A DNA stretch of 49,588 nucleotides, taken from the NCBI GenBank assembly GCA_029211095.1, contig JARGFS010000004.1, positions 1 to 49,588 on the forward strand, given 5' to 3'. Origin of the DNA: a bacterium (GTDB lineage Bacteria > Zixibacteria > MSB-5A5 > GN15 > FEB-12). Shown piece by piece: positions 29,402 to 47,037 of the stretch; the stretch's first letter is position 1; every line of letters begins with the position of its first letter. A program made the translations under genes and the position numbers. Below the pieces are notes generated by a model. The model was not told where the DNA came from. It worked only from the letters and a program-made list of their open reading frames with translations, and did no database searches.

Positions 29402-30354
29402 TGGCTACCACGATTAACAATTTGGCGGCTGCGCCTCTACCCAAGAGCGACCTGGAGAGACTTCGCGGAAAATCTGGGGGGAATCTTGAAGCTGACAAGG
29501 CGCGTCTCAAGAAAGCCACCAAGGAGTTTGAATCACTGGTCGTTTATGAAATGCTCAAAACGATGCGCAAGACTATTCCGGAATCAGACTTCACCAAAGG
29601 CTCACCGTTTTCAGGCGGTATGGGCAAGGACATTTTTGAACAGATGTTTGATATGCAACTGTCACGGCAGGTCTCCGGCGATGGCCGACAGTCGATTGCT
29701 TCCATGCTCTACAAGCAGGTAGAAAAAATTCTGGAAGCACAACACAGGACCGAACCTGAGGGCCCGGAATTCAGGCCATTGCAGTCCCCGGAAAAAGAGT
29801 TGTCTCCGCTTGCACCAAGGAATTTTATCGAGCGACCACAGCGGAGTATTGAGCTATCGCCGGACAACGACCGCACTGCTGTTAAGGCGCCAGTTCCGAA
29901 GCGAACTGACCTGGACCCGGTCTGGAAACGGTATCAGGGTGAGATTGATCGGGCGGCTCAGGAGAGCGGGCTCGACTCCGCTCTGATTGTTTCGGTCATA
30001 AAAGCGGAGTCAAGTGGTGATCCGAAGGCCGTTTCGTCGGCTGGAGCATCCGGTCTGATGCAGTTAATAGACTCAACCGCATCGGAATATGGAGTAAGTG
30101 ACCGCCTCGATCCGGCTCAAAATGTAAGCGGCGGCGCCCGTTACCTGAAAGATATGCTGGACCGCTATGGCAGCCTGAAACTGGCCCTGGCCGCATACAA
30201 TGCCGGGCCGGGCAATGTTGACCGATATGGCGGAGTGCCTCCGTTTGAGGAGACCAATCGTTATATCGACAAGGTTCTCGGCTATCTGGACGAGCTAAGT
30301 GATGCGACAGCCAGTTCACAACCTAAAGAGGTATGGGAAAAATCCGATAATTAG
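29401..30354 (+). CDS. flgJ: FlgJ-type rod-assembly protein with SLT lytic transglycosylase domain
   Basis: The 317-residue protein joins two domains. Residues 30-120 form the FlgJ rod-binding domain ('ATKEFESLVVYEMLKTMRKTIPESD', 'GGMGKDIFEQMFDMQLSRQVS'). A Pro/Glu-rich linker follows. Residues 185-305 form a Slt-type lytic transglycosylase with catalytic Glu E203 in 'VIKAESSGDP', plus 'GASGLMQLI' and 'AAYNAGPGNV'. FlgJ of enterobacteria instead carries a glucosaminidase-type (GH73) domain. The role is to open peptidoglycan locally for the growing rod. Confidence 0.93.
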   Translation: MATTINNLAAAPLPKSDLERLRGKSGGNLEADKARLKKATKEFESLVVYEMLKTMRKTIPESDFTKGSPFSGGMGKDIFEQMFDMQLSRQVSGDGRQSIASMLYKQVEKILEAQHRTEPEGPEFRPLQSPEKELSPLAPRNFIERPQRSIELSPDNDRTAVKAPVPKRTDLDPVWKRYQGEIDRAAQESGLDSALIVSVIKAESSGDPKAVSSAGASGLMQLIDSTASEYGVSDRLDPAQNVSGGARYLKDMLDRYGSLKLALAAYNAGPGNVDRYGGVPPFEETNRYIDKVLGYLDELSDATASSQPKEVWEKSDN

Positions 30355-30384
30355 AGAGCACTCTAAATACCAAAGATATGGGAT

Positions 30385-30870
30385 ATGGTAAACAAACTGA
30401 TAGACATATTGGGCAGGGAAGCCGAGATTTTCGAATCATTCCTCTTGCTGCTTGAAGAGCAGCAACTCCACCTGGTAAACAATGATGCCGACGGGCTCCA
30501 GCAGGTCACGGAAAGGCAGAGGGAAAAGGTTGTTGAAAGTCAGCTCTGCAACAAGCAGAGGGAAGCCCTGGTGGAAGAGATCAGGGTTGCCAATGCAATC
30601 GATGGGGACGTGAATATAACCCGCCTGCTGAATATCGTTGACAAGAATCAGGCCGAGCGGCTGACCCAGCTTCGCGATTTAATTCTCTCGCTTCAGGAAC
30701 AGATCACCACTGTACGCAATCAGAACGCCCTGCTGCTCAACCGGTCGCGGGAGTATATCTCCAAAATGATGACCATGCTGTCCAAGCTGCATCAGCCTGA
30801 AGGCGGATATGACAGTGTTGGCAGCAAGAACGCCAATAATGCGGCCGTAGCCGTGGATAGGAGAGCCTGA
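30385..30870 (+). CDS. flgN: FlgN-like flagellar export chaperone
   Basis: The 161-residue protein is mostly helical, with the FlgN pattern: an N-terminal 'LIDILGREAEIFESFLLLLEEQQLHLVNNDADGLQQVTERQREKV' helix pair and a C-terminal amphipathic helix. FlgN binds the hook-filament junction proteins FlgK and FlgL before export. Its stop overlaps the ATG of flgK (TGATG), which supports the role. Confidence 0.85.
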   Translation: MVNKLIDILGREAEIFESFLLLLEEQQLHLVNNDADGLQQVTERQREKVVESQLCNKQREALVEEIRVANAIDGDVNITRLLNIVDKNQAERLTQLRDLILSLQEQITTVRNQNALLLNRSREYISKMMTMLSKLHQPEGGYDSVGSKNANNAAVAVDRRA

Positions 30871-32264
30871 TGCCAGGATTATTTCAAGGGCTTGAAATAG
30901 GCAAACGCGCTTTGCTCTCCTCGCAGGTCGTCCTGCAGACGATTGGTCACAACGTGGCCAATGTCAACACCCCCGGTTATTCAAGGCAGCGCGTTAATAT
31001 CAATACCACTTATCCGGAAATGTCCGCCCACGGACCGATTGGCAGTGGCGTCTCGGTGCGCGATGTACGTCAGGTACGCGACCTCTTTCTCGGGTCCCAG
31101 TACAGACGCGAAAACAAGTCTCTGGGTCAATGGTCATACAAAGAAAAAGTAATGGGCCAGGTAGAAGCGCTCTTTAATGAGCCCTCGGACAACACTCTTT
31201 CGGATCAGTTGAATGACTTTTGGAACAGTTGGTCGGCGCTGGCTACCGATAATACCGGTGCCTCCCGCAAAGCCTTGATTACATCGGCGGTGCAGCTCAC
31301 CAACGGATTCCACCAGCTGGCCGGCGAGCTGCAGACTCTTCGCGATTCAATCGACCGGGATATGGTCAATATCACCGAATCAGTGAACGGCAAAGCTCGC
31401 GAAGTGGCCCGCCTGAACAAAATGATCTCCATGCAGGAAGCGGGCGGAGACCGAGCGAATGATCTGAGAGATGCGCGCGACCTTCTGGTTGATGAGATGT
31501 CCGAGTTTGTGGATATCAACACGGTTGAGGATGAGCGTGGCAATATGATTGTCTATGTTGGCGCTATGACCATTGTGGATGGTCCGGATTCTCTTCCGAT
31601 TGAAGCCAGGTCGGAGAATAAAAGCGGCGTTCTCACTCACAAACTGGTCTGGGAAGGAAGCTCGGTAGAGATTACCAATCTAAATGGCCAGCTAAAAGGG
31701 CTGGTTGATGCCCGGGATGAGGTCATTCCCCGCTATCTCAATGAACTCCATACTCTGTCGAATACTATCGCAAGAGAAGTGAACGCCATGCACCGCACCG
31801 GCTATGGTGTAAATGATAGTACCGGGGTAGATTTCTTTGAAACAGACAATACGGACGCCTTCAATATCAGTGTCAATCGTGACCTTCTGGCCGATTCCAA
31901 CCTGGTCGCGGCTGCCGTAGCATCCGGTTCACCGGCTGACAATCGGCTGGCCGTAGCTATTTCAGAGCTTCAGGACAAAAAAGTCTTTTTCGGAAATAGC
32001 AGCACGATGAGTGACTACTACAACAGCATGGTCAGTAATCTTGGCGTTGAGTCCAATGAGGCCATGTCGTTTTCAGCTAACTATGAACTACTTGTTAATC
32101 AGGTCAATAACTCGAAGATGGCCGTGGAGGGGGTATCAATCGACGAGGAAATGGCCAATATGGTGAAATTTCAACATGCCTATGACGCAGCTGCGCGCGT
32201 AATCACGACGATGGATCAGGCGCTCGATACTATTATCTCAGGGATGGGAGTAGTTGGTCGATGA
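30870..32264 (+). CDS. flgK: Flagellar hook-associated protein FlgK (HAP1)
   Basis: The 464-residue protein has the N-terminal 'LEIGKRALLSSQVVLQTIGHNVANVNTPGYSRQRV' and the C-terminal 'SIDEEMANMVKFQHAYDAAARVITTMDQALDTIISGMGVVGR' characteristic of FlgK. It forms the first junction zone between hook and filament. Length is normal to slightly short, as expected for a FlgK without a large exposed domain. Confidence 0.96.
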   Translation: MPGLFQGLEIGKRALLSSQVVLQTIGHNVANVNTPGYSRQRVNINTTYPEMSAHGPIGSGVSVRDVRQVRDLFLGSQYRRENKSLGQWSYKEKVMGQVEALFNEPSDNTLSDQLNDFWNSWSALATDNTGASRKALITSAVQLTNGFHQLAGELQTLRDSIDRDMVNITESVNGKAREVARLNKMISMQEAGGDRANDLRDARDLLVDEMSEFVDINTVEDERGNMIVYVGAMTIVDGPDSLPIEARSENKSGVLTHKLVWEGSSVEITNLNGQLKGLVDARDEVIPRYLNELHTLSNTIAREVNAMHRTGYGVNDSTGVDFFETDNTDAFNISVNRDLLADSNLVAAAVASGSPADNRLAVAISELQDKKVFFGNSSTMSDYYNSMVSNLGVESNEAMSFSANYELLVNQVNNSKMAVEGVSIDEEMANMVKFQHAYDAAARVITTMDQALDTIISGMGVVGR

Positions 32265-32292
32265 TAAAGCAGAACTGCGAAAAGAGTAATGA

Positions 32293-32308
32293 TAGCCAAG
32301 GAGGGTTA
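32293..32308 (+). promoter_or_regulatory. Hairpin presenting the csrA ribosome-binding site (candidate CsrA autoregulatory site)
   Basis: TAGCC (32293-32297) pairs with GGTTA (32304-32308), including one G-U pair, around the six-base loop AAGGAG (32298-32303). The loop is the ribosome-binding site of csrA itself and contains ANGGA, the core of CsrA targets. CsrA bound here would block translation. CsrA autoregulation is known in other bacteria. Confidence 0.5.
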
Positions 32309-32309
32309 A

Positions 32310-32648
32310 GTGCTGATTCTAACACGGAGGTTAGGTGAGTCCATCACAATTGGAGACAGTATCAGAGTTTCAGTTCTGGGCGTAAGCGGTCGGCAGGTGC
32401 GAATTGGTATCGACGCTCCCAGTGATGTGGTTGTGCACCGTGAAGAGGTGTACGTGCGCATCCAGGAAGAGAACCGCAAAGCGGCCCAGGTAATGAAAAA
32501 GGATCTGTCGAGCGTGGTGAATCTAATCAAGGATAAGATTACCGGAAAGACCAAGAAAGACTCGGAGAATCCGGAGATTGAATTTAAGAAAGATGACGGG
32601 CCGGATCATCGGCACCGGCGTTCCCGTCGTGATGACAGGCGCACCTGA
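32310..32648 (+). CDS. csrA: Translational regulator CsrA with extended C-terminus
   Basis: CsrA binds GGA motifs in messenger RNA leaders. Residues 1-60 are a standard CsrA ('[16 protein letters not shown]', '[22 protein letters not shown]'), with RNA-contact residues L4 and R44 present. Typical CsrA has about 60-75 residues. This one has 112, with an extra helix and a very charged tail ending in an Arg/His/Asp-rich stretch. It starts with GTG after AAGGAG and lies between flgK and flgL, while its usual antagonist gene fliW follows flgL. The neighbourhood suggests flagellin control. Confidence 0.94.
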
Positions 32649-32706
32649 TAAAAGGCGCACCGGTTTCAGATGTGAAGACATGGAAGAATAGGACAAAGGC
32701 GACACT

Positions 32707-34653
32707 ATGCGTGTAACATCGGGAATGATAACTGGCCGGGTGATTTTCAATTCGCAGCGATCCCTATCGCGCTTATTGCAACTCCAGGGACAGCTCTCGT
32801 CCGGGCGAAGAATCGAGCGCCCTTCGGATGATCCGGTGGGAACTCTTCGGGACCTGGACTATCGCAACGTGCTGGCCCAGAATGACCAGTACCTGAAAAA
32901 CATAAGCCGGGCCAAGACCTGGGCCCAGAATTATGATACCGTCCTGAGTGATCTCAAAGATATGGTGCAGCAGGCCAAGGATCTGACGATCACCATGTCT
33001 GATGATTCCGTCTCAACCGAGTCAAGAATCGGATCACATACAGTCGCAAAGTCTATTCTTGAACAGATAGGACAATTGGCTAACGGCAAATTGGATGGGA
33101 TGTACGTCTTCTCCGGTTTCCAGTCTGATACCCAGTCGCTGGATATCTCCGCCGACGGAGTGAGGTATCGTGGTGATCGAGGCTCAATTGAATACCCGAT
33201 AGAAGCGGCCTACAACAGCAAAGTCAATCTGATCGGTGACGATGTCTTTCTCAAGCAGCTGAAAACACTGGGGGCGGAGGCTGACCTCAATCTGGCCGTC
33301 AGCCCCAGCACCCTGCTGGCCAACCTGAATTCCGGCAACGGGGTTGATCTTCTCAGCGGCGGAACTTTTGAGATTACGGATGAGACTCTGGGGGTCACAG
33401 CTACTATCGATATTTCGGGCGCTGCGACCATAGATGATGTCATTACAGCCATTAATACGCAGCTACCTCCGACAATCTCCAACTTGACCTTTGGGATCGC
33501 CGGGGCGGGCAACGCGCTCTCAATTGATATTGACGAGTCCGCTCCTCGACTTGTAAATGACGGAACACTTCTGTCAGATATCAACGAAGGGCACAGTCTG
33601 GACCTTTCCTATGGCCGGATGCGGCTGACCGACGGAGCCGGGATAAATATGGATGTCGACTTCAACAGCCCGGCAATCCCTGTGACCGTGGGGGATTTGC
33701 GCAATGCCTTCAATACCCAAATGGCTGCCTATGGTCCGCCGCTGGACAATGTTTCAATGCAATTGAATGCGGCTGGGACCGCCCTTGAAATCTTAGATGC
33801 CAATGGCGTTCCGGTTGGATTGTCGGTTGCAGAAGTAAACCCGGATTCCACTACCGCCGCCGATCTCGGACTGCTTGGAAATATTGGGGCTTCACTCACG
33901 GGACACGACCTGAAACCGAGCTACAAATTCAGTATCAATGATATCGCCGGTACAACGGCGGCTGATCTCGGGATTGTGGACGAATATAGAAGTGATGGCA
34001 CCGGTACCGATCTCAACCCTATTCTGACGGCCGCTACCGCCGCTGCCACCAGCCTTTCCGACCTCAACAATGGAGCCGGATTCAGCGGTAACGAGATGGT
34101 TTTCTGGCAGGGTCAGGTTTCGGAGACGTTTGATATCTCTTCGGTAAGCACAGTCCAGGAACTACTGGACCTGTTCAATAGCTCCTACCTGGATATTACG
34201 GCGGAATTGAACTCCAGCGGGACCGGAATCCAGATCAGCAATAATGACCCTACGCTTTCCTTCTCCATTGAAGATGTGGGGGATGGAACGCTGTCCAAAG
34301 AGCTGGGACTGTTTGGGGCTGCTGACATGATGGCTTCGCTGACTATGCTGACCAAAGCATTAAAGAACGATGATCGTGAAGGTGTCTCGTTGCTGATGCA
34401 GAATTTTGATGACGCCATTGATCATCTTCTGGAAAAGCGTTCGACCACCGGCTCCCACATGGCGAGGCTGGAGACAACAGAATACCGCCTGTTGGACCAG
34501 AAATTGACATACACTAAGCTTCTATCAGAAGTAGAAGATGCCGACATAACGGATCTAATTACACAATTGACCACTCAGGAAAACAACTATCAGGCTTCGC
34601 TGATGGCGGCGGCTAAAATTGTCCAGCCGACATTGGTTGATTTCCTGAGGTGA
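32707..34653 (+). CDS. flgL: Flagellar hook-associated protein FlgL (HAP3), enlarged
   Basis: At 648 residues this is about twice the usual FlgL. The ends are typical: 'MRVTSGMITGRVIFNSQRSLSRLLQLQGQLSSGRRIERPSDDP' and 'DADITDLITQLTTQENNYQASLMAAAKIVQPTLVDFLR'. The centre carries three flagellin-hook-IN-like repeats starting near residues 204, 289 and 450 ('L.DLN.G.G', then a 'T..DV..A.N' segment and 'ADLGL'). FlgL is the second junction protein below the filament. The repeats probably form exposed surface domains. Confidence 0.93.
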   Translation: MRVTSGMITGRVIFNSQRSLSRLLQLQGQLSSGRRIERPSDDPVGTLRDLDYRNVLAQNDQYLKNISRAKTWAQNYDTVLSDLKDMVQQAKDLTITMSDDSVSTESRIGSHTVAKSILEQIGQLANGKLDGMYVFSGFQSDTQSLDISADGVRYRGDRGSIEYPIEAAYNSKVNLIGDDVFLKQLKTLGAEADLNLAVSPSTLLANLNSGNGVDLLSGGTFEITDETLGVTATIDISGAATIDDVITAINTQLPPTISNLTFGIAGAGNALSIDIDESAPRLVNDGTLLSDINEGHSLDLSYGRMRLTDGAGINMDVDFNSPAIPVTVGDLRNAFNTQMAAYGPPLDNVSMQLNAAGTALEILDANGVPVGLSVAEVNPDSTTAADLGLLGNIGASLTGHDLKPSYKFSINDIAGTTAADLGIVDEYRSDGTGTDLNPILTAATAAATSLSDLNNGAGFSGNEMVFWQGQVSETFDISSVSTVQELLDLFNSSYLDITAELNSSGTGIQISNNDPTLSFSIEDVGDGTLSKELGLFGAADMMASLTMLTKALKNDDREGVSLLMQNFDDAIDHLLEKRSTTGSHMARLETTEYRLLDQKLTYTKLLSEVEDADITDLITQLTTQENNYQASLMAAAKIVQPTLVDFLR

Positions 34654-34673
34654 TTATAGGAGAGCCAAGAAGT

Positions 34674-35162
34674 ATGCGCTTTACAACCCGCAGATTTGGA
34701 GAGTTGGATGTCCCGAACGACAAGCTGATCAAAATGGCGCGTCCGCTGTTGGGATTTGAAAAACTCGAGACTTTCTGCATGATCGAATCGGAAGAGATGG
34801 CCCCGTTTCTCTGGCTTCAGTCGACCGAGGATCCGGAGGTTGCTTTCATAATTGTAAATCCCAGGTTGTTCTACCCGGATTACAAGATCGAAGTAAACCG
34901 GGCCGAAGTGGCTGAACTCAGGATCAACGATGTTCATCAGGTAGAGACCTATGTAATTGTGACGATTCCGACTGAGTCGACCAGAATATCGGTCAACCTT
35001 CAGGGGCCCGTCCTGGTCAACACCGAGAATAATCTGGGTCGTCAGCTGGTCATGGTCAATTCTGATTATGGCATCAAGCACTTCATTCTGGATGAAGTCC
35101 CCGATGCAATTGAAACAGACAGGGTAAAGGCTGCTCGTGAGGAAGAGCTGATACCGGTCTGA
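34674..35162 (+). CDS. fliW: Flagellar assembly factor FliW
   Basis: FliW binds flagellin and, when free, sequesters CsrA, so it couples flagellin synthesis to export. The 162-residue protein begins with the typical 'MRFTTRRFGELDVPNDKLIKMARPLLGFEKLETFCMIE' and has 'PFLWLQSTEDPEVAFIIVNP' and 'LGRQLVMVNSDYGIKHFIL'. AGGAG at 34658-34662 supports ATG 34674. A GTG at 34650 overlapping the flgL stop is possible. Confidence 0.95.
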   Translation: MRFTTRRFGELDVPNDKLIKMARPLLGFEKLETFCMIESEEMAPFLWLQSTEDPEVAFIIVNPRLFYPDYKIEVNRAEVAELRINDVHQVETYVIVTIPTESTRISVNLQGPVLVNTENNLGRQLVMVNSDYGIKHFILDEVPDAIETDRVKAAREEELIPV

Positions 35163-35182
35163 GAATCTGAATTTCAAAATCA

Positions 35183-35205
35183 CGGACAGGAGTAAATTCT
35201 GTCCG
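35183..35205 (+). other. Hairpin between fliW and the glycosyltransferase gene
   Basis: CGGACAG (35183-35189) and CTGTCCG (35199-35205) form a perfect 7-bp stem with a nine-base loop, with no T-tract. It lies six bases before a second hairpin (35211-35227) and may help fold the leader. Confidence 0.5.
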
Positions 35206-35210
35206 GCAGC

Positions 35211-35227
35211 AGAAAATGGAATTTTCT
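35211..35227 (+). promoter_or_regulatory. GGA-loop hairpin at the start of the glycosyltransferase gene (candidate CsrA site)
   Basis: AGAAAAT (35211-35217) and ATTTTCT (35221-35227) form a perfect 7-bp stem with the triloop GGA (35218-35220). The start codon follows one base later. GGA is the only Shine-Dalgarno-like sequence, eight bases before the ATG, and the context ATGGA fits the CsrA core ANGGA. Confidence 0.5.
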
Positions 35228-35228
35228 C

Positions 35229-38200
35229 ATGAATAAGAGCAGGACGCCACAGCCTCGCAAGGACTCTCTGACTGCCACGAAAGTGCAGTCGGCTCCCAAT
35301 AAGAACCGACCCACGACAGTCGGGCAGGCCCTATCACTTGCCCAGCTGCTGATAAATGAGAATCGTTGGGGCAGGATGTTGGAGATTCTCACGCCATTCA
35401 AAGAGAAAGCAGACAGGGCCAGCGCATACGAACAGAATGCCTACTATCGGCTGTACTCCCTGGCGCTGCTAAATGAAAAGAGAGTGGAGGAACTGGAAGA
35501 GATCCTACGGTCGTTCCGCGCCCTTGCTCCGGACTCACTCGATTTAGCCTATCTGGAGTGTGGTCTGGCGGCTCTCATGCGGGAGCATGAATCAACCGTC
35601 AGTAACGGAATACGCTACCTCAGATTGCTTGGGGAGAAAAGCAGCAATGAATATCTGACCAACAATTCAGTCAGTCATGGCACGCTTTGCTTCTGGTTGG
35701 GGGAGGGCCAAAAAGCGCTGGGGAATTATGAAGAGGCACGTGACGCGTACAACCACGCGATCAAGCTGCTGCCAGAAAATCAACGTCCGTATCTTGCCTT
35801 AGTCTCACTTTTGAAAGCGACGGATGATACCGAGTCGGCAGAAAAATGGATTGCAACCGGGATCGGAAATTGCCCGGAGAATACCGAGTTAAGAATTCTG
35901 CAGGATTCCCTCAAGAAAAGACCGACTATTTCCGCCTGTATGATCGTACGCAACGAAGAGACAATGTTGTCTGCCTGCCTGGATTCTATCCGTGACTGGG
36001 TCGATGAAATTATCCTCGTCGACACCGGCTCCACTGATCGCACCCCGGAGATTGCATCCGAATACCGGGCAAAAATATACCATCAGCAGTGGCAGGATGA
36101 CTTTTCATTCCATCGCAACTACTCAATCTCTCAATCGAATTCTGATTGGATATTGATCATCGATGCTGATGAGCGGATTCCGCGGGAAGATGTAGCCGAG
36201 ATCAAGTCCGCTATCGGCGATTCCAACAATAGTCTCATATCTTTGACAATAGAAAATGTAACCCCCGGTGGGGATCGCATTTCCAGTCTGACCAGTTCCG
36301 TCCGGCTTTTCAAAAGAGAGCTCGGCCTTAAGTACAATGGTATCGTGCATAACGAATTGGTCCTGCCACCTAACGAACGAATAATAGCGGTGCCTTCGCG
36401 AATCAGGCATCTCGGGTATAATCTTGATCTGGGCCGGATGAGCGAGAAATTCCAGCGCACCAAACGGCTTCTGGAAAAGCAGGTTAAGTCAGAGCCCAAC
36501 AACCCGTTTGCCAGTTTCAATTATGCGCAGCAGTTATGCAACGAGGATAGTAATTACGGCACCAACAACGCCACTACGGTTATAGACAATGCTAATAAGA
36601 CAATAGAGCTGTCTCAAAATGAGCGAGGTCGCAGGCATCTATGGATGATGTCGCTGCATCAGCTGGCCCGAGCCTACTTCAATCTTCAGGACTACCAACG
36701 CGCCCGGAACTATTGCCTTCAGGCGGTAGCCATGAAACCAAATTATCTGGACGTCCTGATTCAGGCTGGTTTTTGCAGTGTGAAATTGGAAGAGTATGAT
36801 ATCGCCGCTGATTGGTTCAAGAGCTATCTCAACTACCAGAAAGAGTTTGATCCGATCAGGGACACGGAGTCGCTGATCATCTGGCACTATGACAGTCGTG
36901 TCCTGGTATTAAACAATCTCGGGTTGATCGCGGAGATGTCGGGTGCCTACAAGGAGGCCGGAGAGTACTACCGGCAGGTTTTGGAACTTGACCCGGAGCA
37001 TGACAATGCCCGCACTCGGCTCAATGCTATCAAAGCTGGTCAGGTTGCCACCCCACTTACCGGGCCGGTTTCCACCGCCGATCCACGTCAACAACTCTTG
37101 GTCGCGAGACAGGCCTGCTTCAATCATCAGCCGGACCATGCGGTAGAAATACTGTGTTCAATCAATAAATCCGAACTGAATCCAGAGCAAGCCCTGGAAT
37201 ATTATCGGCTCAGTGCGCATTCATATCTGGCTTTGGGTCGTTTTGTCGATGCCGAACATTCAATAACGGCAGCTCGCAGCGAAGGGCATGATTCGATCGA
37301 TTTTGACTATGTGGAGAGCCAGGTTAAACTGAAATTACGAGACTATACCGGCGCTGGCAACGCTGCCGATTCGTACCTGGCCAGACTAAAAGCAAAAACA
37401 ATTACGCCGGAGGATATTTCGACAACCGACCGCCACGTCAGTCAACTGTATGATACGCGTGCTGTCGCCAAAATTTATGTCGGAACACCGGACGAGGCCA
37501 GAGACGACTTTGAAGAAGCAATCAGGCAGGACCGAGGTAATCAATCTCCATATCTTGGCTGCGTCAGGCTGTTGCGCTCCCGCGGGGAATATGAGCAGGC
37601 TGATAAACTTCTGGCCGAAGGGATCAAACACTGTTCCGATGTTCAGGAATTGAGACTGATGTCTGAGTGGTCCAGGCAGAAGGTAAGTATCTCCGCCTGT
37701 ATGATTGTTAAAGATGAAGAGAAGCTGCTCCCCGGTTGTCTTGATTCGATCCGAGACTGGGTCAATGAAATCGTTATTGTAGACACCGGTTCTTCGGACA
37801 GAACCGTTGAGATTGCAAAATCGTACGGAGCGAAGGCGCTTTATCAGCAATGGGAAGGAGACTTCTCCAAGCACCGGAACTACTCCATTGAGCAGGCGAC
37901 CTCGGACTGGGTCTTCATCATTGATGCTGATGAGCGCTTTGAGCAGGAAGATATCTCAAAACTCCTTCAGATAGTAAATGATCCGGAGCCTCAGGCAATA
38001 TCAATCAACGTCTTCAACTATTATCAGCAAGCCGACCATAAAGTAACTTCGGTCAACTCGCTTCGGTTTTTCCGCCGGGAGTTGAACCTGCGATATGAGG
38101 GAATCGTCCACAATCAGATTAATATACCCGAAGGACTGGTAATTACTCGGGCTCCAATCAGTCTCCGCCATCTCGGTTATGATCTTGATCCGGAGGCAAT

Positions 38201-39623
38201 GGCGCGTAAATTTGAGCGGACGCGTGCGCTTCTGGAAGAGCAGCTGGAGAAGAATCCGGAGTTTGCCTTTGGATGGTTCAATCTGGCCCAGCTCTACCGG
38301 GGGCACCTGTTCGAGAATCCTCAGGAATACGGCAAGAAGATCATCGCGGCCTCTACAAAAGCTATCGAGCTAACTTCGGCTGAAGTCACCACCGAACGAT
38401 ACGTACATTTGATGGCTCTGGACCAACTGGCCTGGACCTGCTTTTATCTTGAGCGCTATTCAGAAGCTGAAAAGTGGGCTCGTCGGGCCTTGGAACACAA
38501 ATCAGATTATCTTGATCCGCTCATGTTGCTGGGACATATCTATGCGCAATCAAAGAGATACCCGGAGGCTATCGCGGCTTACCAGAACTACTTGGATACT
38601 CAGGCCGGTTATGATAGTGGTCGAGAATTTGAATCTCTCATTCTTATTCATCCGGACAGCCGGGCTACCGCTTACTTTGGGATCGGCTCGGCGGCTGAAA
38701 TGCTGGGTAATCTGAAACTGGCCAAGGAGAGTTATCTTAAAGCGCACGAGGCTACCCCGGGTTACCTGCAGGTCCCTCTTTGTCTGGGGCGAATATTCTT
38801 GAATGAAGGCGACCTTCCTCAGGCAGAGAAGTACCTGAAAATGCAACTGGAGAAGAAAGAACCTTCGGTGCACGCCCTGCTCGGATTGGCCCACCTTTAC
38901 ACGGTTCAGTCCAAAGAGGATGAAGCAGAACAGCAGCTATTGAAGGCATTGAATGAAAGCCCCTTGAATCCGAATGTATTGTCCCAAATGGCCGAATTCT
39001 ACACCCATACCAGTCGCCACAGCGATGCTTACCGGCTCCTGAGAGAGCTTCACCAGCTGATGCCGGACGACTCCGATATTAATCGCCGTTTCGGTGATAC
39101 CTGCTTTTCACTTGGGAGCTACCATGCCGCCTCGGAAATCTACCGCAAGCTCTTAGTTGAGCAGCCGGAGAATTCCTCACTACTCAACGATCTGGCCAAT
39201 TGCTGTTTCAAAACGGAACAGTTCCAGGAAGCTGAGCGGCTGTACCGGCAGGCTCTTACAACGGAAAGCGCCGATGTGATCGCTCTGAGGAATCTTGGGC
39301 TCTCACTGGTGAAACAGAATAAACCGCAGGAAGGGGCCGAGGTTTTTGAGAAATACCTTAATCTAATGCCAAATGACCACCAGATACGGCTGCTACTCGG
39401 AAATATGCTGGTGCAGATCGGTCGGTACGGCCAGGCTCTTGGCTGCTACGAGAGCTACCTGAAAGAAAACTCTTCTGACTCCGGCGCAATGGCCCGGATT
39501 GCGGATTGCTATCTGCTTATGGGACATGAGGATTCAGCTCTGGTCGGCTACCGTCAGGCACTCGCAATTGACCCAGGCTGCAGACATGCTCGGCAGCGGC
39601 TCGACCAGCTACAGGTGGTTTGA
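35229..39623 (+). CDS. Giant TPR protein with two GT2 glycosyltransferase domains (putative flagellin glycosyltransferase)
   Basis: The 1464-residue cytoplasmic protein has TPR-like repeats at about 35-230, 470-620, 640-815 and 1060-1460. Two family-2 glycosyltransferase domains start at residues 234 and 821, each with 'ISACMIV..EE.L...CLDSIRDWV.EI..VDTGS.DRT.EIA'. Each has its DxD motif ('IDADER') at 312-314 and 899-901, exactly 77 residues after the domain-start serine. Both nucleotide-sugar sites thus look intact. GT plus TPR units repeat with a constant 587-residue offset, pointing to internal duplication. Position between fliW and fliC suggests it glycosylates flagellin, with the TPRs holding the acceptor. 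The acceptor and sugar are not known. Confidence 0.85.
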   Translation: MNKSRTPQPRKDSLTATKVQSAPNKNRPTTVGQALSLAQLLINENRWGRMLEILTPFKEKADRASAYEQNAYYRLYSLALLNEKRVEELEEILRSFRALAPDSLDLAYLECGLAALMREHESTVSNGIRYLRLLGEKSSNEYLTNNSVSHGTLCFWLGEGQKALGNYEEARDAYNHAIKLLPENQRPYLALVSLLKATDDTESAEKWIATGIGNCPENTELRILQDSLKKRPTISACMIVRNEETMLSACLDSIRDWVDEIILVDTGSTDRTPEIASEYRAKIYHQQWQDDFSFHRNYSISQSNSDWILIIDADERIPREDVAEIKSAIGDSNNSLISLTIENVTPGGDRISSLTSSVRLFKRELGLKYNGIVHNELVLPPNERIIAVPSRIRHLGYNLDLGRMSEKFQRTKRLLEKQVKSEPNNPFASFNYAQQLCNEDSNYGTNNATTVIDNANKTIELSQNERGRRHLWMMSLHQLARAYFNLQDYQRARNYCLQAVAMKPNYLDVLIQAGFCSVKLEEYDIAADWFKSYLNYQKEFDPIRDTESLIIWHYDSRVLVLNNLGLIAEMSGAYKEAGEYYRQVLELDPEHDNARTRLNAIKAGQVATPLTGPVSTADPRQQLLVARQACFNHQPDHAVEILCSINKSELNPEQALEYYRLSAHSYLALGRFVDAEHSITAARSEGHDSIDFDYVESQVKLKLRDYTGAGNAADSYLARLKAKTITPEDISTTDRHVSQLYDTRAVAKIYVGTPDEARDDFEEAIRQDRGNQSPYLGCVRLLRSRGEYEQADKLLAEGIKHCSDVQELRLMSEWSRQKVSISACMIVKDEEKLLPGCLDSIRDWVNEIVIVDTGSSDRTVEIAKSYGAKALYQQWEGDFSKHRNYSIEQATSDWVFIIDADERFEQEDISKLLQIVNDPEPQAISINVFNYYQQADHKVTSVNSLRFFRRELNLRYEGIVHNQINIPEGLVITRAPISLRHLGYDLDPEAMARKFERTRALLEEQLEKNPEFAFGWFNLAQLYRGHLFENPQEYGKKIIAASTKAIELTSAEVTTERYVHLMALDQLAWTCFYLERYSEAEKWARRALEHKSDYLDPLMLLGHIYAQSKRYPEAIAAYQNYLDTQAGYDSGREFESLILIHPDSRATAYFGIGSAAEMLGNLKLAKESYLKAHEATPGYLQVPLCLGRIFLNEGDLPQAEKYLKMQLEKKEPSVHALLGLAHLYTVQSKEDEAEQQLLKALNESPLNPNVLSQMAEFYTHTSRHSDAYRLLRELHQLMPDDSDINRRFGDTCFSLGSYHAASEIYRKLLVEQPENSSLLNDLANCCFKTEQFQEAERLYRQALTTESADVIALRNLGLSLVKQNKPQEGAEVFEKYLNLMPNDHQIRLLLGNMLVQIGRYGQALGCYESYLKENSSDSGAMARIADCYLLMGHEDSALVGYRQALAIDPGCRHARQRLDQLQVV
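35928..37030 (+). repeat. Internal duplication, copy 1 (GT2 plus TPR unit)
   Basis: Residues 234 to about 600 of the giant protein align with residues 821 to about 1190 at a constant offset of 587, covering the GT2 domain and the TPR pairs after it. Divergence at protein level is moderate, so the duplication is old. Confidence 0.7.
37689..38798 (+). repeat. Internal duplication, copy 2 (GT2 plus TPR unit)
   Basis: Second copy, residues 821 to about 1190. It keeps 'ISACMIVKDEE', 'WVNEIVIVDTGSSDRT', 'IDADER' and the later 'LRHLGYDLD' motif also found in copy 1 as 'IRHLGYNLD'. Confidence 0.7.
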
Positions 39624-39685
39624 AAGATTTCTGATGAAAGTCATATTTTGAAGAAAATTCCTTAAGAAAAGGGAACAGATTGCGG

Positions 39686-39712
39686 TTAAGAGAAAACAAC
39701 AAATGCCGATTA
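39686..39712 (+). promoter_or_regulatory. Sigma28 (FliA-type) promoter of fliC
   Basis: TTAA (39686-39689) and GCCGATTA (39705-39712) are exactly 15 bases apart, against the consensus TAAA-N15-GCCGATAA. Transcription would start near 39719 and give a leader of about 190 bases. The 285-base gap between the glycosyltransferase gene and fliC holds this promoter, that leader and no convincing gene. Confidence 0.75.
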
Positions 39713-39887
39713 AAGTCAAAGAAATACATGCGAATACTAATGCGACACACTCGCGACATAGAGGAGGGACGTGCTGAATTTGAAAGCCGTCTGAATGGGA
39801 TTATAGGCGGATTATATCCAACATCGGAAGTGACAGGTCATGAAACTAAATGCCTATTAAATAAAAACAGGGGTAAGGGCACCCCAA

Positions 39888-39905
39888 TCAATCAAGGAGG
39901 ATTGA
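39888..39905 (+). promoter_or_regulatory. Hairpin presenting the fliC ribosome-binding site (candidate CsrA site)
   Basis: TCAATC (39888-39893) and GATTGA (39900-39905) form a perfect 6-bp stem with the hexaloop AAGGAG (39894-39899), which is the ribosome-binding site of fliC. The loop matches ANGGA. A second ANGGA lies at 39765-39769 in the leader, and a small GGGGT/ACCCC hairpin (39870-39885) sits just upstream. This resembles the two-site CsrA control of the Bacillus flagellin gene hag. Confidence 0.6.
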
Positions 39906-39908
39906 CAA

Positions 39909-42122
39909 ATGTCACTTCGCATTAACCACAACATTGCCGCTCTGAACGCGCACAGAAATCTGCAGAACACGAATGAATCTCTGCAGAAATCCATGCAGCG
40001 TCTCTCATCCGGTTTCCGCATCAACCGCGGTGCCGATGATCCTGCCGGCCTTGTTATCTCTGAACAGTTCCGTGCGCAGATTGCCGGTCTTAACCGTGCG
40101 ATCGGTAACTCGGAAGGTTCCATCAGCATGATTCAGACAGCTGAAGGTGCTCTTACAGAAATCAACTCACTGTTGGTTTCCATGAGAGAACTGGCCATTC
40201 ATGCCGCCAACGAAGGCTTTAATGATGCCGACCAGCTGGCTGCCGATCAGGCTGAAATCCAGAACGCGGTCAAGACTATTGATCGTATCGCTGCCAACAC
40301 TCAGTTTGGTACCAAGAAGTTGCTTGATGGCTCCAAAGAAAATGTAGCCACTATCACAACTCAGGATGCTACCACTGAGGCCAGTGTCATTAGCTCCGGC
40401 CTCAGCACCGGCACTCACTATCTGCATGCCGTTAAGACTGCCGATCCAAGTGCCACGCTGAACACCAGCAATCTCGGTATCTCTCTGAACAACACTGATG
40501 GCGATCCTTACAACTTGTCTGAAGGCGTCCATCAGATTGATGTCGTTCAGTCGTCCGGCGTAGCCACCAAGGCTTCCGGAAATATTGGCGTCACCGATGC
40601 CTGGGGTAACGGACTGGAAATCGCCGGCGCCGCTGCCAAAGCGACATTGAAATCTGCCGTTGCATTCAGCTCCGGAAACACCGGAAACGCCGGTTCTTAC
40701 AACTTCTTCGTCCGCTACCAGGACCAGGAAAGCAACAGTGGTAATCCATCTGCTCTGCAGACTCTCTCTGTTGCCATGACGGCCGGTACTACCGGTGCCG
40801 AAGTCACCACCGCCTTGAACAACGCCATCGCCGCCAACTCTGAGCTGGCCGGTAAGATTCAGGCTGTTGCTTCTATCCAGGCTGGTCACGCTACGGCCAA
40901 CTCCGTTTGGTATAGCTTTGAGACTGTCAGCGAAGGCGCACAGTTCTCCATGAAGACGGATGCTTCCAGTTCTTCGGCTACTTTTGCCAACGCTCTCAGC
41001 TTCGCTGATGCTTCGGATCGTGGTGCCTCTCTCGGTACTTTGAATCTGACCACTAACACTGATCAGCAGAACCTTTTGGCTAACGAGACGGTTACTGTAG
41101 CTAACGCTGTCTACACCGATATGGACACTCTGGTTGCCGCTATCAACACTGGTATTGCCGGCGCTACTTATGCCAGCAGTAGCAGTGATATCACGGCCAC
41201 CAAAGTAGATGCCAATCACTTCCAGATCTCGACTGTAGACGAAGGTTCAACCTATTACCTGCAGCTCAACCAGACGGCCGGTGCGACTTCTGATCTGAAT
41301 CGCGCTCTTGGCATGACAGTTGACGCTCAGGCCAATACCGGTGTTGACGCTCTGGTCAACTTTGATGGCTATTCCAACGCTATCAACGATGTCAAGAAGT
41401 CTGCTACCGGAACATTTACTCTGAAGACCGGTGCCGATTCTGATCCGGCCAATCAGGGTACCATGTCAATCATAACGGCTATGGCCAAGTCTGCCACCAA
41501 TGGCACTGGCGTCCTTGCCGGTAATATTCTGGCCGACATTACAGCCACCAAATTCGATATCCAGCTTGACGGCGGAACCAAAACCGCAGCCACAGCCGGA
41601 CAGGATGTCGCAGTATTTAACGCTGATCGCTCTCAGTCGGTCACCGTTCGGTACGGTCTGACTTCCACTGGTGGAAACGCTACTCTGAGCAACACCGATC
41701 AGTCGCTGGTTTTCCAGATTGGCGCCAACGTTGGTCAGACTGCCAGCATTTCGCTTCGCAATATTTCTGCCTCTTCACTGGGCAAGAATCTTGAAGGCAA
41801 TCTGTTTAGCGATCTGTCCAAGATTGATGTCACCACCGTTCAGGGCTCTCAGGATGCGCAGTCAATTATTGATGCTGCCATCAATGAAGTCTCCACAACT
41901 CGTGGTGCCCTCGGTAGCTTCCAGAAGAATACTCTGGAATCTAACTTGAGAAACCTGCGAATCGCCGCTCAGAACCTCACCGCTGCTGAGTCTCAGATTC
42001 GTGACACTGATATGGCTAAAGAGATGTCAGAATTCACCAAGAACCAGATCCTCGTTCAGGCTGGTACTTCGATTCTGGCTCAGGCTAACCAGACCCCGCA
42101 GATGGTCTTGCAGCTGTTCTAA
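39909..42122 (+). CDS. fliC: Flagellin, large
   Basis: Flagellin is the filament subunit. The N-terminal 140 residues ('MSLRINHNIAALNAHRNLQNTNESLQKSMQRLSSGFRINRGADDPAGL') and the last 90 ('SNLRNLRIAAQNLTAAESQIRDTDMAKEMSEFTKNQILVQAGTSILAQAN') are strongly conserved D0/D1 helices. The 500-residue centre is Ala/Thr/Ser/Asn-rich and has no recognised domain, giving 737 residues against about 500 in E. coli. Many Ser/Thr residues provide possible O-glycosylation sites. The gene has its own sigma28 promoter, a long leader and a strong ribosome-binding site. fliD and fliS follow. Confidence 0.96.
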   Translation: MSLRINHNIAALNAHRNLQNTNESLQKSMQRLSSGFRINRGADDPAGLVISEQFRAQIAGLNRAIGNSEGSISMIQTAEGALTEINSLLVSMRELAIHAANEGFNDADQLAADQAEIQNAVKTIDRIAANTQFGTKKLLDGSKENVATITTQDATTEASVISSGLSTGTHYLHAVKTADPSATLNTSNLGISLNNTDGDPYNLSEGVHQIDVVQSSGVATKASGNIGVTDAWGNGLEIAGAAAKATLKSAVAFSSGNTGNAGSYNFFVRYQDQESNSGNPSALQTLSVAMTAGTTGAEVTTALNNAIAANSELAGKIQAVASIQAGHATANSVWYSFETVSEGAQFSMKTDASSSSATFANALSFADASDRGASLGTLNLTTNTDQQNLLANETVTVANAVYTDMDTLVAAINTGIAGATYASSSSDITATKVDANHFQISTVDEGSTYYLQLNQTAGATSDLNRALGMTVDAQANTGVDALVNFDGYSNAINDVKKSATGTFTLKTGADSDPANQGTMSIITAMAKSATNGTGVLAGNILADITATKFDIQLDGGTKTAATAGQDVAVFNADRSQSVTVRYGLTSTGGNATLSNTDQSLVFQIGANVGQTASISLRNISASSLGKNLEGNLFSDLSKIDVTTVQGSQDAQSIIDAAINEVSTTRGALGSFQKNTLESNLRNLRIAAQNLTAAESQIRDTDMAKEMSEFTKNQILVQAGTSILAQANQTPQMVLQLF

Positions 42123-42135
42123 AGCCGATAATTAT

Positions 42136-42165
42136 GTTTGGAGGGAGGTCATTCTCCCTCCAAAC
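42136..42165 (+). terminator. Strong stem-loop between fliC and fliD
   Basis: A perfect 12-bp stem (42136-42147 with 42154-42165, loop GTCATT) starts 14 bases after the fliC stop. There is no T-tract, so it may protect the abundant fliC message from 3' decay or reduce read-through to fliD rather than act as a full terminator. Confidence 0.7.
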
Positions 42166-42212
42166 AGCTAAACAGGAATAGACATTGATGTCGATCACTA
42201 CAGAGGAGTAAG

Positions 42213-44552
42213 ATGGCAGGCTTTAATTCCATATCAGGCTTAAATTCCGGGCTCGACACTCCCGGAATCATTGACGCCATCATGGCGTTTGAACGTCGCA
42301 ACACTAATCTCCTCGAAGAACAACAGGTTATAAAGCAGGCCACAATTACCGCCCTGCAATCGCTTCAGGCAAAATTCTTTGCCCTCAATTCACAACTGGG
42401 ACAACTCAAACTTGGATCGACCTTTGAACAGGGGACGGTTAGCTCTTCGGACAAAAACGTTCTATCAGCTTCGGCCAACGGAAGAGTACCGACCGGCAGT
42501 TATGATCTTAGAGTTTTGCAGTTGGCCAGTAATCACCAGATTGCCAGCCAGGGTTTTAGCTCGATAGATGAGAGCCTGTTTGGTAGTGGTGACATCAAAA
42601 TTACGGTTGGAAACGGATCAGAACAGGTTGTCACGGTAGGATCGGACAACAACAGCCTCAAAGGAATCAAGAACGCTATCAATGACGCGCGAATCGGGGT
42701 GACAGCTACGATCGTAAATGATGGCTCATCTTCGGACCCTTACCGGCTCATTCTTACCGGTGACAGTACCGGGGTTGCAAACAAAATTACAATCAACTCT
42801 AGCCTGATCGGGGGAGAGAACCTCAACTACAGCACTGCAACCTTTGGTAGTCCGGAGTCAGTAGTGATGAACACCGGCTCCAGTTCACAAGTCTCGCTGG
42901 GAGCAAGTGCCGCCTTCACCGGGAATGAAAATAAAATCTTTACATTCACAGTCCAGGGAACCGGAGAACAGACGATAGGCTCTGACAATATTACTATTAC
43001 CTGGTCCGATGGCGTGAATCCGGAACAGTCAATTGTGGTGACTCAGGCTGATACGGAAGTTGAATTGGTAGGAGCGGGGGCCGATGGGCTCAAGCTCTCC
43101 TTCGCGGCAGGCACTCTCACTGCCGATGACACTTTTCAGATTGCAACTTTTGCGCCGCTACTTCAAGAGGCGTCCGATGCTAAGCTCGCGGTAGGATCAA
43201 CCGGTGGAAGTGGCTCGCCCATCACGGTGACTTCGGCAACAAATACTTTCAACGATGTCATCGGCGGCGTTACCCTGAACGCCAACGGGATCAGCGAAAC
43301 AGGAACGAGTGTGAAGGTCAAGACCGATCTTGATGTTTCCGCTATCAAATCAAAAATTCAGGGATTCCTGGACGCCTTCAACGAAATTAACGAATATATT
43401 GATAAGCAGAATGCTTATACCCAAGATTCAGACTCGGCCCCGCCTCTATTTGGGGACTTTACTGTCTGGAATCTGCAGAATTCGCTCAGAAAGACCTTAA
43501 GTTCGGCTGTCAAAGGGCTGGACTCAAAATATAATCAACTGGCCACGCTGGGTATTCGGAGCAACGCCGAAGGAAACCTGACCATCAAAGACAGCTCTCG
43601 GTTAGAAACGGCTCTTCGCGAAAATCTGGATGATGTCATAAACCTCTTTACCGATGCCGGCAATTCCAGCAATGCCAATATCGAGTTTATCTCCTCCGCC
43701 TCCGCTACAGTAGCCGGACAGAACTACGCTGTAAACATCACTCAGCCCCCCACCCACGGTGGATATCGAGGCGCGGGTCTCAGCGACCCAGCCACGACAC
43801 CGATTACATTGGACGCTACCAACAACCGGCTGAAGTTGAAAATCGATGCGATTGTGTCCGATGAAATCGCTCTTGACCAGCGGGAGTACACCACCTATGC
43901 AGAATTGGTTGCGGAACTACAGAGCAAAATAGATAACGATGACAAGATCGGTTCTCTCGGCGTGGAAGTAAAATGGGTGGAGACCGGAGCCGGGAGTGGC
44001 TACCTGGAATTGGTAAGTCCCAATTACGGCGAGACCTCCAAAATAGAATTGATCAGCTCAATCTCAAACACGGCATATTCTGTGCTCGGTCTGGCTACCG
44101 GCACTCAGGTGGCCGGTAAAAATGTGGCCGGGACCATCAATGGCGAAGCCGCCACAGGCAATGGTGTCCTTCTTACCGGAGACGAAGACAACAAGACCAC
44201 GGCCGGACTCAAATTGAAAATACTACTTGATGAAGCTGATGTCGGAGACGGCGCCGAGGGTACCATATATGTTACCAAGGGTGTGGCCTCGCAGCTCAAT
44301 GATCTGGTCAAGAGCTACACGGCTTCAAAGGACGGGATTCTGGACCGGCGTATTTCCAGTTTCCAGGCCCAAATTGACTATCTCTCAAAACGGGTCGCGG
44401 AAAATGACAAGTATTTGAGTCTGAGGCGGGAGTCTCTGACGCGGCAATACTATGAAATGGAACTCGCCCTGGGAGAGCTCAATAGCCAGAGTTCTTTCCT
44501 GACCTCACAATTGGATAGCATCAATATGAACTGGAAATTCAATCAGAAATAA
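42213..44552 (+). CDS. fliD: Filament cap protein FliD (HAP2)
   Basis: The 779-residue protein begins with 'GFNSISGLNSGLDTPGIIDAIMAFERRNTNLLEEQQ' and has 'GSYDLRVLQLASNHQIASQGF', the N-terminal FliD domain. The C-terminal FliD domain includes 'VKGLDSKYNQLATLGIRSNAEGNLTIKDSSRLETALREN' and a final coiled coil 'LDRRISSFQAQIDYLSKRVAENDKYLSLRRESLTRQYYEME'. It is considerably longer than E. coli FliD (468), fitting the large flagellin whose folding it caps. GAGGAG before the ATG is the ribosome-binding site. Confidence 0.95.
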   Translation: MAGFNSISGLNSGLDTPGIIDAIMAFERRNTNLLEEQQVIKQATITALQSLQAKFFALNSQLGQLKLGSTFEQGTVSSSDKNVLSASANGRVPTGSYDLRVLQLASNHQIASQGFSSIDESLFGSGDIKITVGNGSEQVVTVGSDNNSLKGIKNAINDARIGVTATIVNDGSSSDPYRLILTGDSTGVANKITINSSLIGGENLNYSTATFGSPESVVMNTGSSSQVSLGASAAFTGNENKIFTFTVQGTGEQTIGSDNITITWSDGVNPEQSIVVTQADTEVELVGAGADGLKLSFAAGTLTADDTFQIATFAPLLQEASDAKLAVGSTGGSGSPITVTSATNTFNDVIGGVTLNANGISETGTSVKVKTDLDVSAIKSKIQGFLDAFNEINEYIDKQNAYTQDSDSAPPLFGDFTVWNLQNSLRKTLSSAVKGLDSKYNQLATLGIRSNAEGNLTIKDSSRLETALRENLDDVINLFTDAGNSSNANIEFISSASATVAGQNYAVNITQPPTHGGYRGAGLSDPATTPITLDATNNRLKLKIDAIVSDEIALDQREYTTYAELVAELQSKIDNDDKIGSLGVEVKWVETGAGSGYLELVSPNYGETSKIELISSISNTAYSVLGLATGTQVAGKNVAGTINGEAATGNGVLLTGDEDNKTTAGLKLKILLDEADVGDGAEGTIYVTKGVASQLNDLVKSYTASKDGILDRRISSFQAQIDYLSKRVAENDKYLSLRRESLTRQYYEMELALGELNSQSSFLTSQLDSINMNWKFNQK

Positions 44553-44583
44553 AATATAACAATAGGACTCAAAGAGGAATAAC

Positions 44584-45021
44584 ATGGACGCTAAGCTGAA
44601 CACCTATCGGACAATAGATACGCTGGGTAAATCACAAATTGACCTGATTCTAAAAGTATACGACGGGGCGCTCAACGAATACCGGTCCAGCCGAGAGGCG
44701 GCTGAGAAAGAAGAGTATCACAACCTTCGCCCTCATCTGGAAAAAGCGGCCAAGTTCATCACTCATTTGTACACCACTCTGGACCCGAAAAAAGGGGGAG
44801 AGATTGCCGCCAATCTGGGGCAGTTGTACGCCCATATCCTGGGACTAACCGACCAGGTCGCGGCCACCAAAGAAATCAAAGTAATTGACGATATTATAAG
44901 CATACTGGAAAACCTCAGAGAAGGTTGGGCCGGTTTGAAACAACAGGAGGCAGACTTGGACAGTTCCGATTCCGAACGGGAATTGACACCGGAAACGGCC
45001 GAGTTTGCCATCACTGGCTGA
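44584..45021 (+). CDS. fliS: Flagellin export chaperone FliS
   Basis: FliS binds the C-terminus of flagellin and prevents premature polymerisation. The 145-residue helical protein has 'YRTIDTLGKSQIDLILKVYDGALNEYRSSREAAEKEEY', 'ITHLYTTLDPKKGGEIAANLGQLYAHILGLTDQ' and 'IDDIISILENLREGWAGL', a clear FliS pattern. GAGG precedes the ATG by six bases. It follows fliD. Confidence 0.94.
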   Translation: MDAKLNTYRTIDTLGKSQIDLILKVYDGALNEYRSSREAAEKEEYHNLRPHLEKAAKFITHLYTTLDPKKGGEIAANLGQLYAHILGLTDQVAATKEIKVIDDIISILENLREGWAGLKQQEADLDSSDSERELTPETAEFAITG

Positions 45022-45034
45022 AGATAGGATCGAT

Positions 45035-45490
45035 ATGGACTTAAAAGACATCAATGAATTGGAAAGAGAACTGATTTTCATTCTCAAGGAAGAGTACTCG
45101 TTTTATCAGTCGCTCTATATCATACTGGACAAACAGCGTGACCAGATCAAATTCAGTCGAGATGACAACCTTCTTGATCTCTACTCGGAGATTGAACGCT
45201 GTCATCGCCGGATCAGACGTTCCGAAGAAAAAGTGGCCGCTATTCGGGATCGTAATCCCAAGTTGTTCAAGATGGCCTCGGTACTTCCGGGAGTCAAGAA
45301 ACTGATTAATAGCATTGCCACACTGATAAAGAAAAATGTCAAGTTGGTCGATGAGAGCGAGATTTATATCAAAGATCGCTATGATCGGATCAAAGAAGAG
45401 ATGGGTGAGCTGAAAAACAGCGAAAAGATTCTGCAGTACATTGGCACAGACGCATCCCCGTCGCCGCAATTTGTAGATGGTAAACAGTAG
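45035..45490 (+). CDS. Second FlgN-like / FliT-position chaperone
   Basis: The 151-residue protein is helical: 'LERELIFILKEEYSFYQSLYIILDKQRDQIKFSRDDNLLDLYSEIERCHRRIRRSEEKV' resembles the FlgN fold, with a second helical half ending in 'SEKILQYIG'. It is in the place where FliT, the FliD chaperone, is usually encoded (after fliS). It may therefore serve FliD, while the gene at 30385 serves FlgK/FlgL. ATG 45035 is chosen. An upstream start at 45005 would overlap fliS. Confidence 0.7.
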   Translation: MDLKDINELERELIFILKEEYSFYQSLYIILDKQRDQIKFSRDDNLLDLYSEIERCHRRIRRSEEKVAAIRDRNPKLFKMASVLPGVKKLINSIATLIKKNVKLVDESEIYIKDRYDRIKEEMGELKNSEKILQYIGTDASPSPQFVDGKQ

Positions 45491-45549
45491 TCTAAGAGAA
45501 AACCCGTACAACCACCGGGCGCCTTTAATTGGAAGTGGAAGGTGGAATG

Positions 45550-45861: not shown

Positions 45862-45869
45862 GAGATTTT

Positions 45870-46754: not shown

Positions 46755-46830
46755 TCGGCCGAACAGACACAGCTCAAAAGCATCTGGCAGACAACGGCTT
46801 GTATAAGATTGCCCGGTTTCAAAATTGATC

Positions 46831-46859
46831 TTGACAATTCACAACCCTCCCTATATTAT
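46831..46859 (+). promoter_or_regulatory. Promoter of tRNA-Val
   Basis: TTGACA (46831-46836) and TATTAT (46854-46859) are 17 bases apart, an almost perfect sigma70 promoter, 37 bases before the tRNA. Confidence 0.85.
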
Positions 46860-46895
46860 ATACAGCTCTGACGAGCGGCTAAGATATTGTTAGTT

Positions 46896-46972: not shown

Positions 46973-46983
46973 TTTTTAATTAA

Positions 46984-47020: not shown

Positions 47021-47037
47021 ATTTTGTGAAAGAACCG

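Follow-up and report, generated by a model that had tools for sequence, protein, structure and literature searches.

Which genes does the CsrA-FliW pair control in the flagellar cluster of Zixibacteria? The question is raised by a stretch of 49,588 bases on contig C186, in a genome of 3.06 Mb ("the window" means this whole stretch), in which flgK, csrA, flgL, fliW, a double glycosyltransferase gene (GT), fliC, fliD and fliS stand in a row. A first-pass annotation of the window placed csrA and fliW correctly, as their family matches attest (Table 1), and proposed that GGA-loop hairpins ahead of csrA, GT and the flagellin gene fliC bring all three under CsrA-FliW control. Comparison of relatives supports such control for fliC, makes it probable for csrA itself and speaks against it for GT. 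The reading put forward here is a CsrA-FliW-flagellin homeostasis circuit that would act on fliC, with the glycosyltransferase no part of the switch; its probability is put at about 85%.

In this circuit, the targets of CsrA dimers on the fliC mRNA would be the GGA loops of two leader hairpins, one upstream and the other at the ribosome site; as the two GGAs lie some 21 bases apart, one dimer could bridge both. CsrA on the leader would block the ribosome, and cytoplasmic flagellin would hold FliW. When flagellin is exported, free FliW would strip CsrA from the leader and fliC would be translated. Flagellin would thereby probably be made only when exportable. Self-repression is probably added by a site of CsrA type that covers the ribosome site of csrA, and one or two further GGA elements upstream in the fliC leader probably take more CsrA. 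Binding, repression and release by FliW are predictions from comparative sequence.

GGA hairpins ahead of fliC and csrA

The comparison covers 117 stretches around fliW fetched from relatives in the same phylum, in which FliW is encoded in 116 of 132 genomes, the window's own counted. L002 and L003 were dropped as duplicates of L037 and L058. The gene order flgK-csrA-flgL-fliW-...-GT-fliC-fliD-fliS recurs among the relatives; it is incomplete in distant families, and many stretches end at contig edges. CsrA itself is uniform in the residues of interest: L4 and R44, its RNA contacts, are found in all 103 proteins, the window's included (lengths 79-122, median 107), N55 is likewise present in 103 of 103, and at position 51 four proteins have V and the other 99 have I. 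In Campylobacter, V51 and N55 are required for FliW binding, N55 being required in Bacillus too (PMC7829508; this and the other papers are cited by PubMed Central number, for the excerpts drawn on here).

The best-supported element of the locus, which the first-pass annotation had overlooked, is a hairpin at -39 to -24 relative to the fliC start. Its loop reads ANGGA in 55 of 61 leaders, a count corrected by hand where the GGA anchor fell on another site (L056, L057, L148, L150); the leaders without ANGGA are those of the window (AAGGG), L056 (AAGGU), L057 (AGGGU) and L091-L093. In the last three, GAAC-AUGGAU-GUUC is found further upstream instead of the start-proximal hairpin. With the GGA as a sequence-only anchor, stem positions 1-5 are paired in 42, 50, 56, 52 and 34 of the 61 leaders, versus 37, 44, 44, 40 and 22 when partners are shuffled. 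The stem is kept through changing bases, as GGGGU/ACCCC, GAGGU/ACCUC, GGGAU/AUCCC, CAGACA/UGUCUG, CAAACA/UGUUUG or AUCGGAUA/UAUCCGAU. When the structure is named on a MAFFT alignment, the covariation score reaches 0.373 versus 0.250 for shuffles, none of 500 being as high. Counted by parsimony on a tree of FliW, FlgL and FliC proteins (53 leaders), positions 1-5 underwent 17 pair-keeping double changes, versus 6, 5 and 0 for slid partners, together with 23 pair-breaking events; positions 2-5 alone account for 16, whereas shuffles average 4.9 and never exceed 11. This test excludes seven leaders (L056, L057, L091-L093, L148, L150) in which the GGA anchor is missing or falls on the wrong place. 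The distance from the upstream GGA to that of the ribosome-site motif is 18-27 bases, median 21, in 52 leaders (L056, L057, L148, L150 and anchors scoring below 6 being left out), and CsrA is described as able to bridge two sites at distances from 10 to 63, those above 18 working best (PMC7652899).

At the ribosome site, conservation was followed with the motif CANGGANG, an ANGGAN hexaloop closed by C-G, in a string form that we take to stand for the CsrA site. It is present in 58 of 60 fliC leaders and 78 of 100 csrA leaders, the window included in both, and in only 5 of 273 leaders of other flagellar genes (flgK 2/69, flgL 2/49, fliW 0/83, fliD 0/41, fliS 1/31). The hexaloop rule for CsrA is that of PMC7652899. 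One fliC leader of the 61 analysed above, L107, fell below the score limit of the later set of 60, and 100 csrA leaders remain from 103 starts, three having no GGA in the region used.

The three hairpins of the first-pass annotation do occur at the bases it gave. Folding reproduces those of csrA and fliC exactly, both with the six-base loop AAGGAG; for GT the predicted loop is of three bases, GGA. Folded in isolation, the fliC leader forms the two hairpins listed in Table 1, separated by two bases (-13.5 kcal/mol, z -3.2). For the csrA hairpin z is -1.9 and for the GT leader -3.7, the latter for a stretch that includes a 9-bp hairpin further upstream. Strong ribosome sites beside complementary bases might mimic CsrA hairpins by chance, and the background is indeed appreciable: among 753 GGA-containing gene leaders collected by a mechanical rule from the window and from relatives, fliC leaders included, 2.8% have a GGA-loop hairpin scoring at least 6, the level of fliC and GT, and 11% one scoring at least 4.5, the level of csrA (which lies below the 120-residue limit of this set and was scored by the same rule by hand). 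The hairpins of GT and fliC are the top two among the 34 window genes with GGA leaders; about one gene in such a set is expected to reach score 6, which makes no single site significant and leaves the decision to comparison, in keeping with the earlier caveat that any one site could be fortuitous. When only leaders with an equally strong GGAGG are compared, CANGGANG is found in 58 of 58 for fliC and 77 of 82 for csrA (135 of 140 together), versus 1 of 53 for the five other genes pooled. With the covariation of the upstream stem and the held-out leaders described below, this makes chance an extremely improbable account of these sites. Across the relatives, conservation parts the three hairpins: those of fliC and csrA are far beyond chance, and that of GT is not.

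For csrA, stem positions 1-3 are paired in 91, 87 and 80 of 100 leaders, versus 74, 70 and 67 after shuffling, and in the cell counts covariation exceeds that of shuffles. The events counted on the tree stay within the range of shuffles; while the site can be called conserved, its stem is not proven.

A covariance model built from the 60 fliC leaders extends the result to further genomes. In the window's genome it finds one strong match, fliC itself, at 46.4 bits, the next scoring 18.4. Matches at an E-value of 0.01 occur in 114 of 132 genomes, the weak ones being mostly unchecked; own-genome matches below 20 bits (L155-L163) lie mostly before unrelated frames and resemble ribosome sites only. 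With weaker or second matches left aside, 26 of the listed matches, all outside the model, form a held-out set; several of its genomes belong to genera also represented in training. In 23 of the 26, the gene that follows begins as flagellin does. All 23 of these leaders carry CANGGANG at the ribosome site, and 22, by reading, have ANGGA in the upstream loop, the remaining one (L197) having AGGGU; the automatic flag counts 23 because a GGA adjoins the L197 site. The string CATNGGAAGTGA occurs twice more in the genome, versus none in a reversed control and about 1.5 expected by arithmetic, one copy lying in a 605-codon open frame and the other in a 93-codon open stretch.

Several observations weigh against the circuit or parts of it. 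On the MAFFT alignment, partners slid by one column score 0.342, close to the 0.373 of the named structure, which we ascribe to a different loop register in distant families; RNAalifold on this alignment of fliC leaders predicts no pair, the upstream stem showing when the GGA serves as anchor or the structure is named. L091-L093 are without the upstream hairpin, and L059 and L060 have hardly any stem. In relatives of the same gene order, where the first-pass annotation expected conserved stems, the ribosome-site hairpin of fliC has kept its loop motif, but its outer stem pairs are barely above shuffles. Double changes in the csrA stem, counted on the tree after setting aside 9 of the 100 leaders without GGAG, number 12, versus a shuffled mean of 8.1 and maximum of 19. 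Three of the 26 held-out matches (L201, L212, L213) do not belong to flagellins, and a second flagellin gene of the genome was found, by eye, to be without CsrA-type leader elements. Finally, the window's own upstream loop is AAGGGC, with GGG at 39879, versus AAGGAC in same-genus L037. This GGG predicts weaker CsrA binding, and would reflect either a looser switch in this species or an assembly error.

The A of the GGA is lost as well in leaders of another genus (L056, L057, L197). A second, short flagellin gene is located on another contig (L035:1501-2265, G000:C26) and would encode about 254 residues from its likely start.

The glycosyltransferase leader

The first-pass annotation further suggested that CsrA and FliW tune csrA, fliC and GT jointly, flagellin output and the enzyme that may modify it moving together. 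Beyond the GT hairpin itself and its rank beside that of fliC, gene order lends this idea some appeal, a GT homologue standing just upstream of fliC (ending less than 700 bases from it) in 58 of 60 loci. A Helicobacter flagellar glycosyltransferase gene is also reported to be under CsrA influence, through RpoN (PMC5368276). The leaders tell otherwise. Forty could be scored, namely those with ATG followed by X-K, GT genes without such a start being excluded; start codons here, as in the set of 753 leaders, are mechanical picks. None of the 40 carries CANGGANG, and a stem score of at least 5 is reached only in the window and in L037, where the sole difference breaks the outermost pair. As the stem is confined to these two, it is unconserved in relatives with the same gene order. 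The GGA, moreover, sits in a three-base loop and not in an ANGGAN hexaloop, and such a hairpin arises by chance in about one gene per 35. Co-control of GT with fliC is thus unsupported and joint tuning very unlikely; chance is the best account of the GT hairpin. By its leader, the glycosyltransferase shows no sign of control and would stand outside the CsrA-FliW switch.

The protein is a candidate by its position: that it is a flagellin glycosyltransferase is a fair guess. Its match to the SunS family is below the cut-off. The tandem duplication is found in the window and in L037, the halves being 36% identical, the other loci examined having one unit before fliC; the window's protein has 1464 residues versus a median of 897 over all. 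A 9-bp hairpin is observed at window positions 35183-35205, between fliW and GT; L037 keeps most of its stem, and the loop differs.

Further elements of the fliC leader

The fliC leader is probably about 190 bases long, as reckoned from a predicted sigma28-like promoter that was scored against what we take to be the sigma28 consensus. The best such site falls at -250 to -200 in 45 of 60 fliC loci, the mean score being 12.7 versus 11.0 for shuffles, and 14 of 60 sites score above the 99th percentile of shuffles, a level that the site of the window (12.0) does not reach. TGCCGAT is present in 35 leaders versus 0.2 expected, an expectation which, like the shuffle expectations for the two elements below, ignores kinship. 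If the promoter is real, GT would not be transcribed from it, because it lies after GT.

Two more GGA elements are conserved in this leader. CAU(N)GGA is found in 53 of 60 leaders, versus 6.0 expected from shuffles, and in 21 of 23 held-out leaders. In the window's family it reads ACAUNGGAAGUGAC, an AC/GU pair around a seven-base loop; distant relatives have true stems (GCC/GGC, GAAC/GUUC, GACC/GGUC). CsrA sites selected in vitro (SELEX, systematic evolution of ligands by exponential enrichment) have AC paired with GU, mostly around a six-base loop (PMC7652899). We regard this element as a probable CsrA site. The second, [AG]GGAGG at -190 to -46, is found in 44 of 60 leaders versus 6.7 expected from shuffles, and in 13 of 23 held-out leaders; it is a possible CsrA site. 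Further long GGA hairpins between -195 and -46 number 0.23 per leader versus 0.10 after shuffling, at inconsistent positions.

By eye, in L077-L079 CAUNGGA has turned into ACACAUUGAAGUGU or similar, the ACAC/GUGU stem remaining and the GGA being gone. The idea that AGGAGGG serves a short upstream reading frame was rejected: the window offers a GTG behind it, but the relatives that were read, again by eye, keep no fittingly spaced start codon.

Instead of binding CsrA, the leader elements could also have a role in ribosome standby or RNA stability, or be targets of another RNA-binding protein. AGGAGG and CAU(N)GGA are in fact conserved more in sequence than in structure, and the seven-base CAU(N)GGA loop of the window's family exceeds the six-base loop preferred by CsrA relatives. 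Both start-proximal elements, however, fit ANGGAN loops, with stems that change in compensation in the upstream case, the ribosome-site motif marks fliC and csrA and hardly any of the five other flagellar genes, and CsrA and FliW are encoded in these very genomes. A role apart from CsrA is accordingly judged unlikely, and CsrA remains the preferred ligand.

A bolder form of the circuit takes the whole leader as a multi-site CsrA dock, in which three to four GGA elements over about 135 bases would hold two dimers, and the fliC mRNA would both obey CsrA and soak it up while CsrA represses its own mRNA. We hold this tentatively, as somewhat less probable than its opposite. Sponge RNAs are known from gammaproteobacteria, and such a dock would be their FliW-type counterpart; the change from GGA to GGG in the window's species would then be a natural loosening of the switch.

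Outside the flagellar cluster, on its 3' side, a tRNA gene (Rfam) is located at window positions 46896-46969. It is the only plausible known RNA that Rfam returned for positions 30000-49588 with E-values up to 1, four further rows being below gathering scores.

Table 1. Features of the Zixibacteria flagellar locus (window coordinates)
Feature	Position	Strand	Remarks
csrA ribosome-site hairpin UAGCC-AAGGAG-GGUUA	32293..32308	+	From folding; core CC-ANGGAG-GG conserved
csrA	32310..32648	+	112 residues, long C-terminal tail; PF02599, 2.6e-24; NCBIfam csrA; L4, R44, I51 and N55 present
fliW, CsrA antagonist	34674..35162	+	PF02623, 8.3e-38
Hairpin before GT gene	35211..35227	+	GGA triloop by folding; judged not a conserved CsrA site
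Glycosyltransferase (GT), tandem-duplicated GT2/TPR	35229..39623	+	1464 residues; two GT2 stretches and TPRs
sigma28-like promoter TTAAGAGA-N11-GCCGATTA	39686..39712	+	Predicted RNA start near 39720
AGGAGGG element, possible extra CsrA site	39762..39768	+	[AG]GGAGG conserved in fliC leaders
ACAUCGGAAGUGAC element, probable CsrA site	39821..39834	+	CAU(N)GGA conserved in fliC leaders
Upstream fliC hairpin GGGGU-AAGGGC-ACCCC	39870..39885	+	From folding; loop GGG in window, GGA in most relatives; covarying stem
fliC ribosome-site hairpin UCAAUC-AAGGAG-GAUUGA	39888..39905	+	From folding; CANGGANG in 58/60 leaders
fliC, flagellin, putative regulated gene	39909..42122	+	737 residues; PF00669, PF00700

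Comparison with known systems

A literature search, covering titles and the starts of abstracts, with most subscription papers and bioRxiv preprints outside its scope, showed no report of a CsrA-FliW-flagellin circuit in Zixibacteria among the papers listed. The locus provides covariation evidence for such a switch in a further, little-studied phylum, with a leader richer in conserved GGA elements than those of Bacillus and Campylobacter, where two are described, and of Clostridioides, where two are predicted; GT drops out of the proposed circuit. That CsrA has an ancient part in controlling flagellin, as is suspected, becomes testable outside the known lineages, and natural variants (intact, GGG, GGU, missing hairpin) are available for binding tests.

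Among proven cases, flaA of Campylobacter jejuni comes closest; binding and repression have been shown there by experiment (PMC4894983). Its leader, which that of Zixibacteria fliC resembles in anatomy, folds into two stem-loops with ANGGA in the loop, the second of them covering the ribosome site; compensatory changes support this structure, and FliW is the antagonist. According to the excerpt of that paper, flaA GGA mutants, including GGG in the second loop, raise protein 2 to 3 fold and weaken binding 4 to 10 fold. The flaA leader has 45 nucleotides and two sites, whereas that of Zixibacteria fliC would have about 190 and one or two more GGA elements; fliW lies apart from csrA in Campylobacter, and in Zixibacteria both belong to one flagellar cluster with fliC.

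Bacillus subtilis hag, as far as the excerpts go, similarly has two CsrA sites, one of them over the ribosome site, with fliW near csrA and a CsrA with an extended tail (PMC7652899, PMC8523840); unlike it, Zixibacteria have more leader elements and, on csrA, a conserved site of CsrA type that covers the ribosome site. The 91-base leader of Clostridioides difficile fliC also has two CsrA sites (PMC8523840), which in the excerpt are predictions, while those of Zixibacteria are backed by phylum-wide conservation and covariation. In Escherichia coli, CsrA inhibits csrA translation (PMC7652899), much as the predicted csrA site would allow here. By the same excerpt, small RNAs serve as antagonists there and FliW is absent, whereas Zixibacteria combine FliW with a CsrA-type site on csrA.

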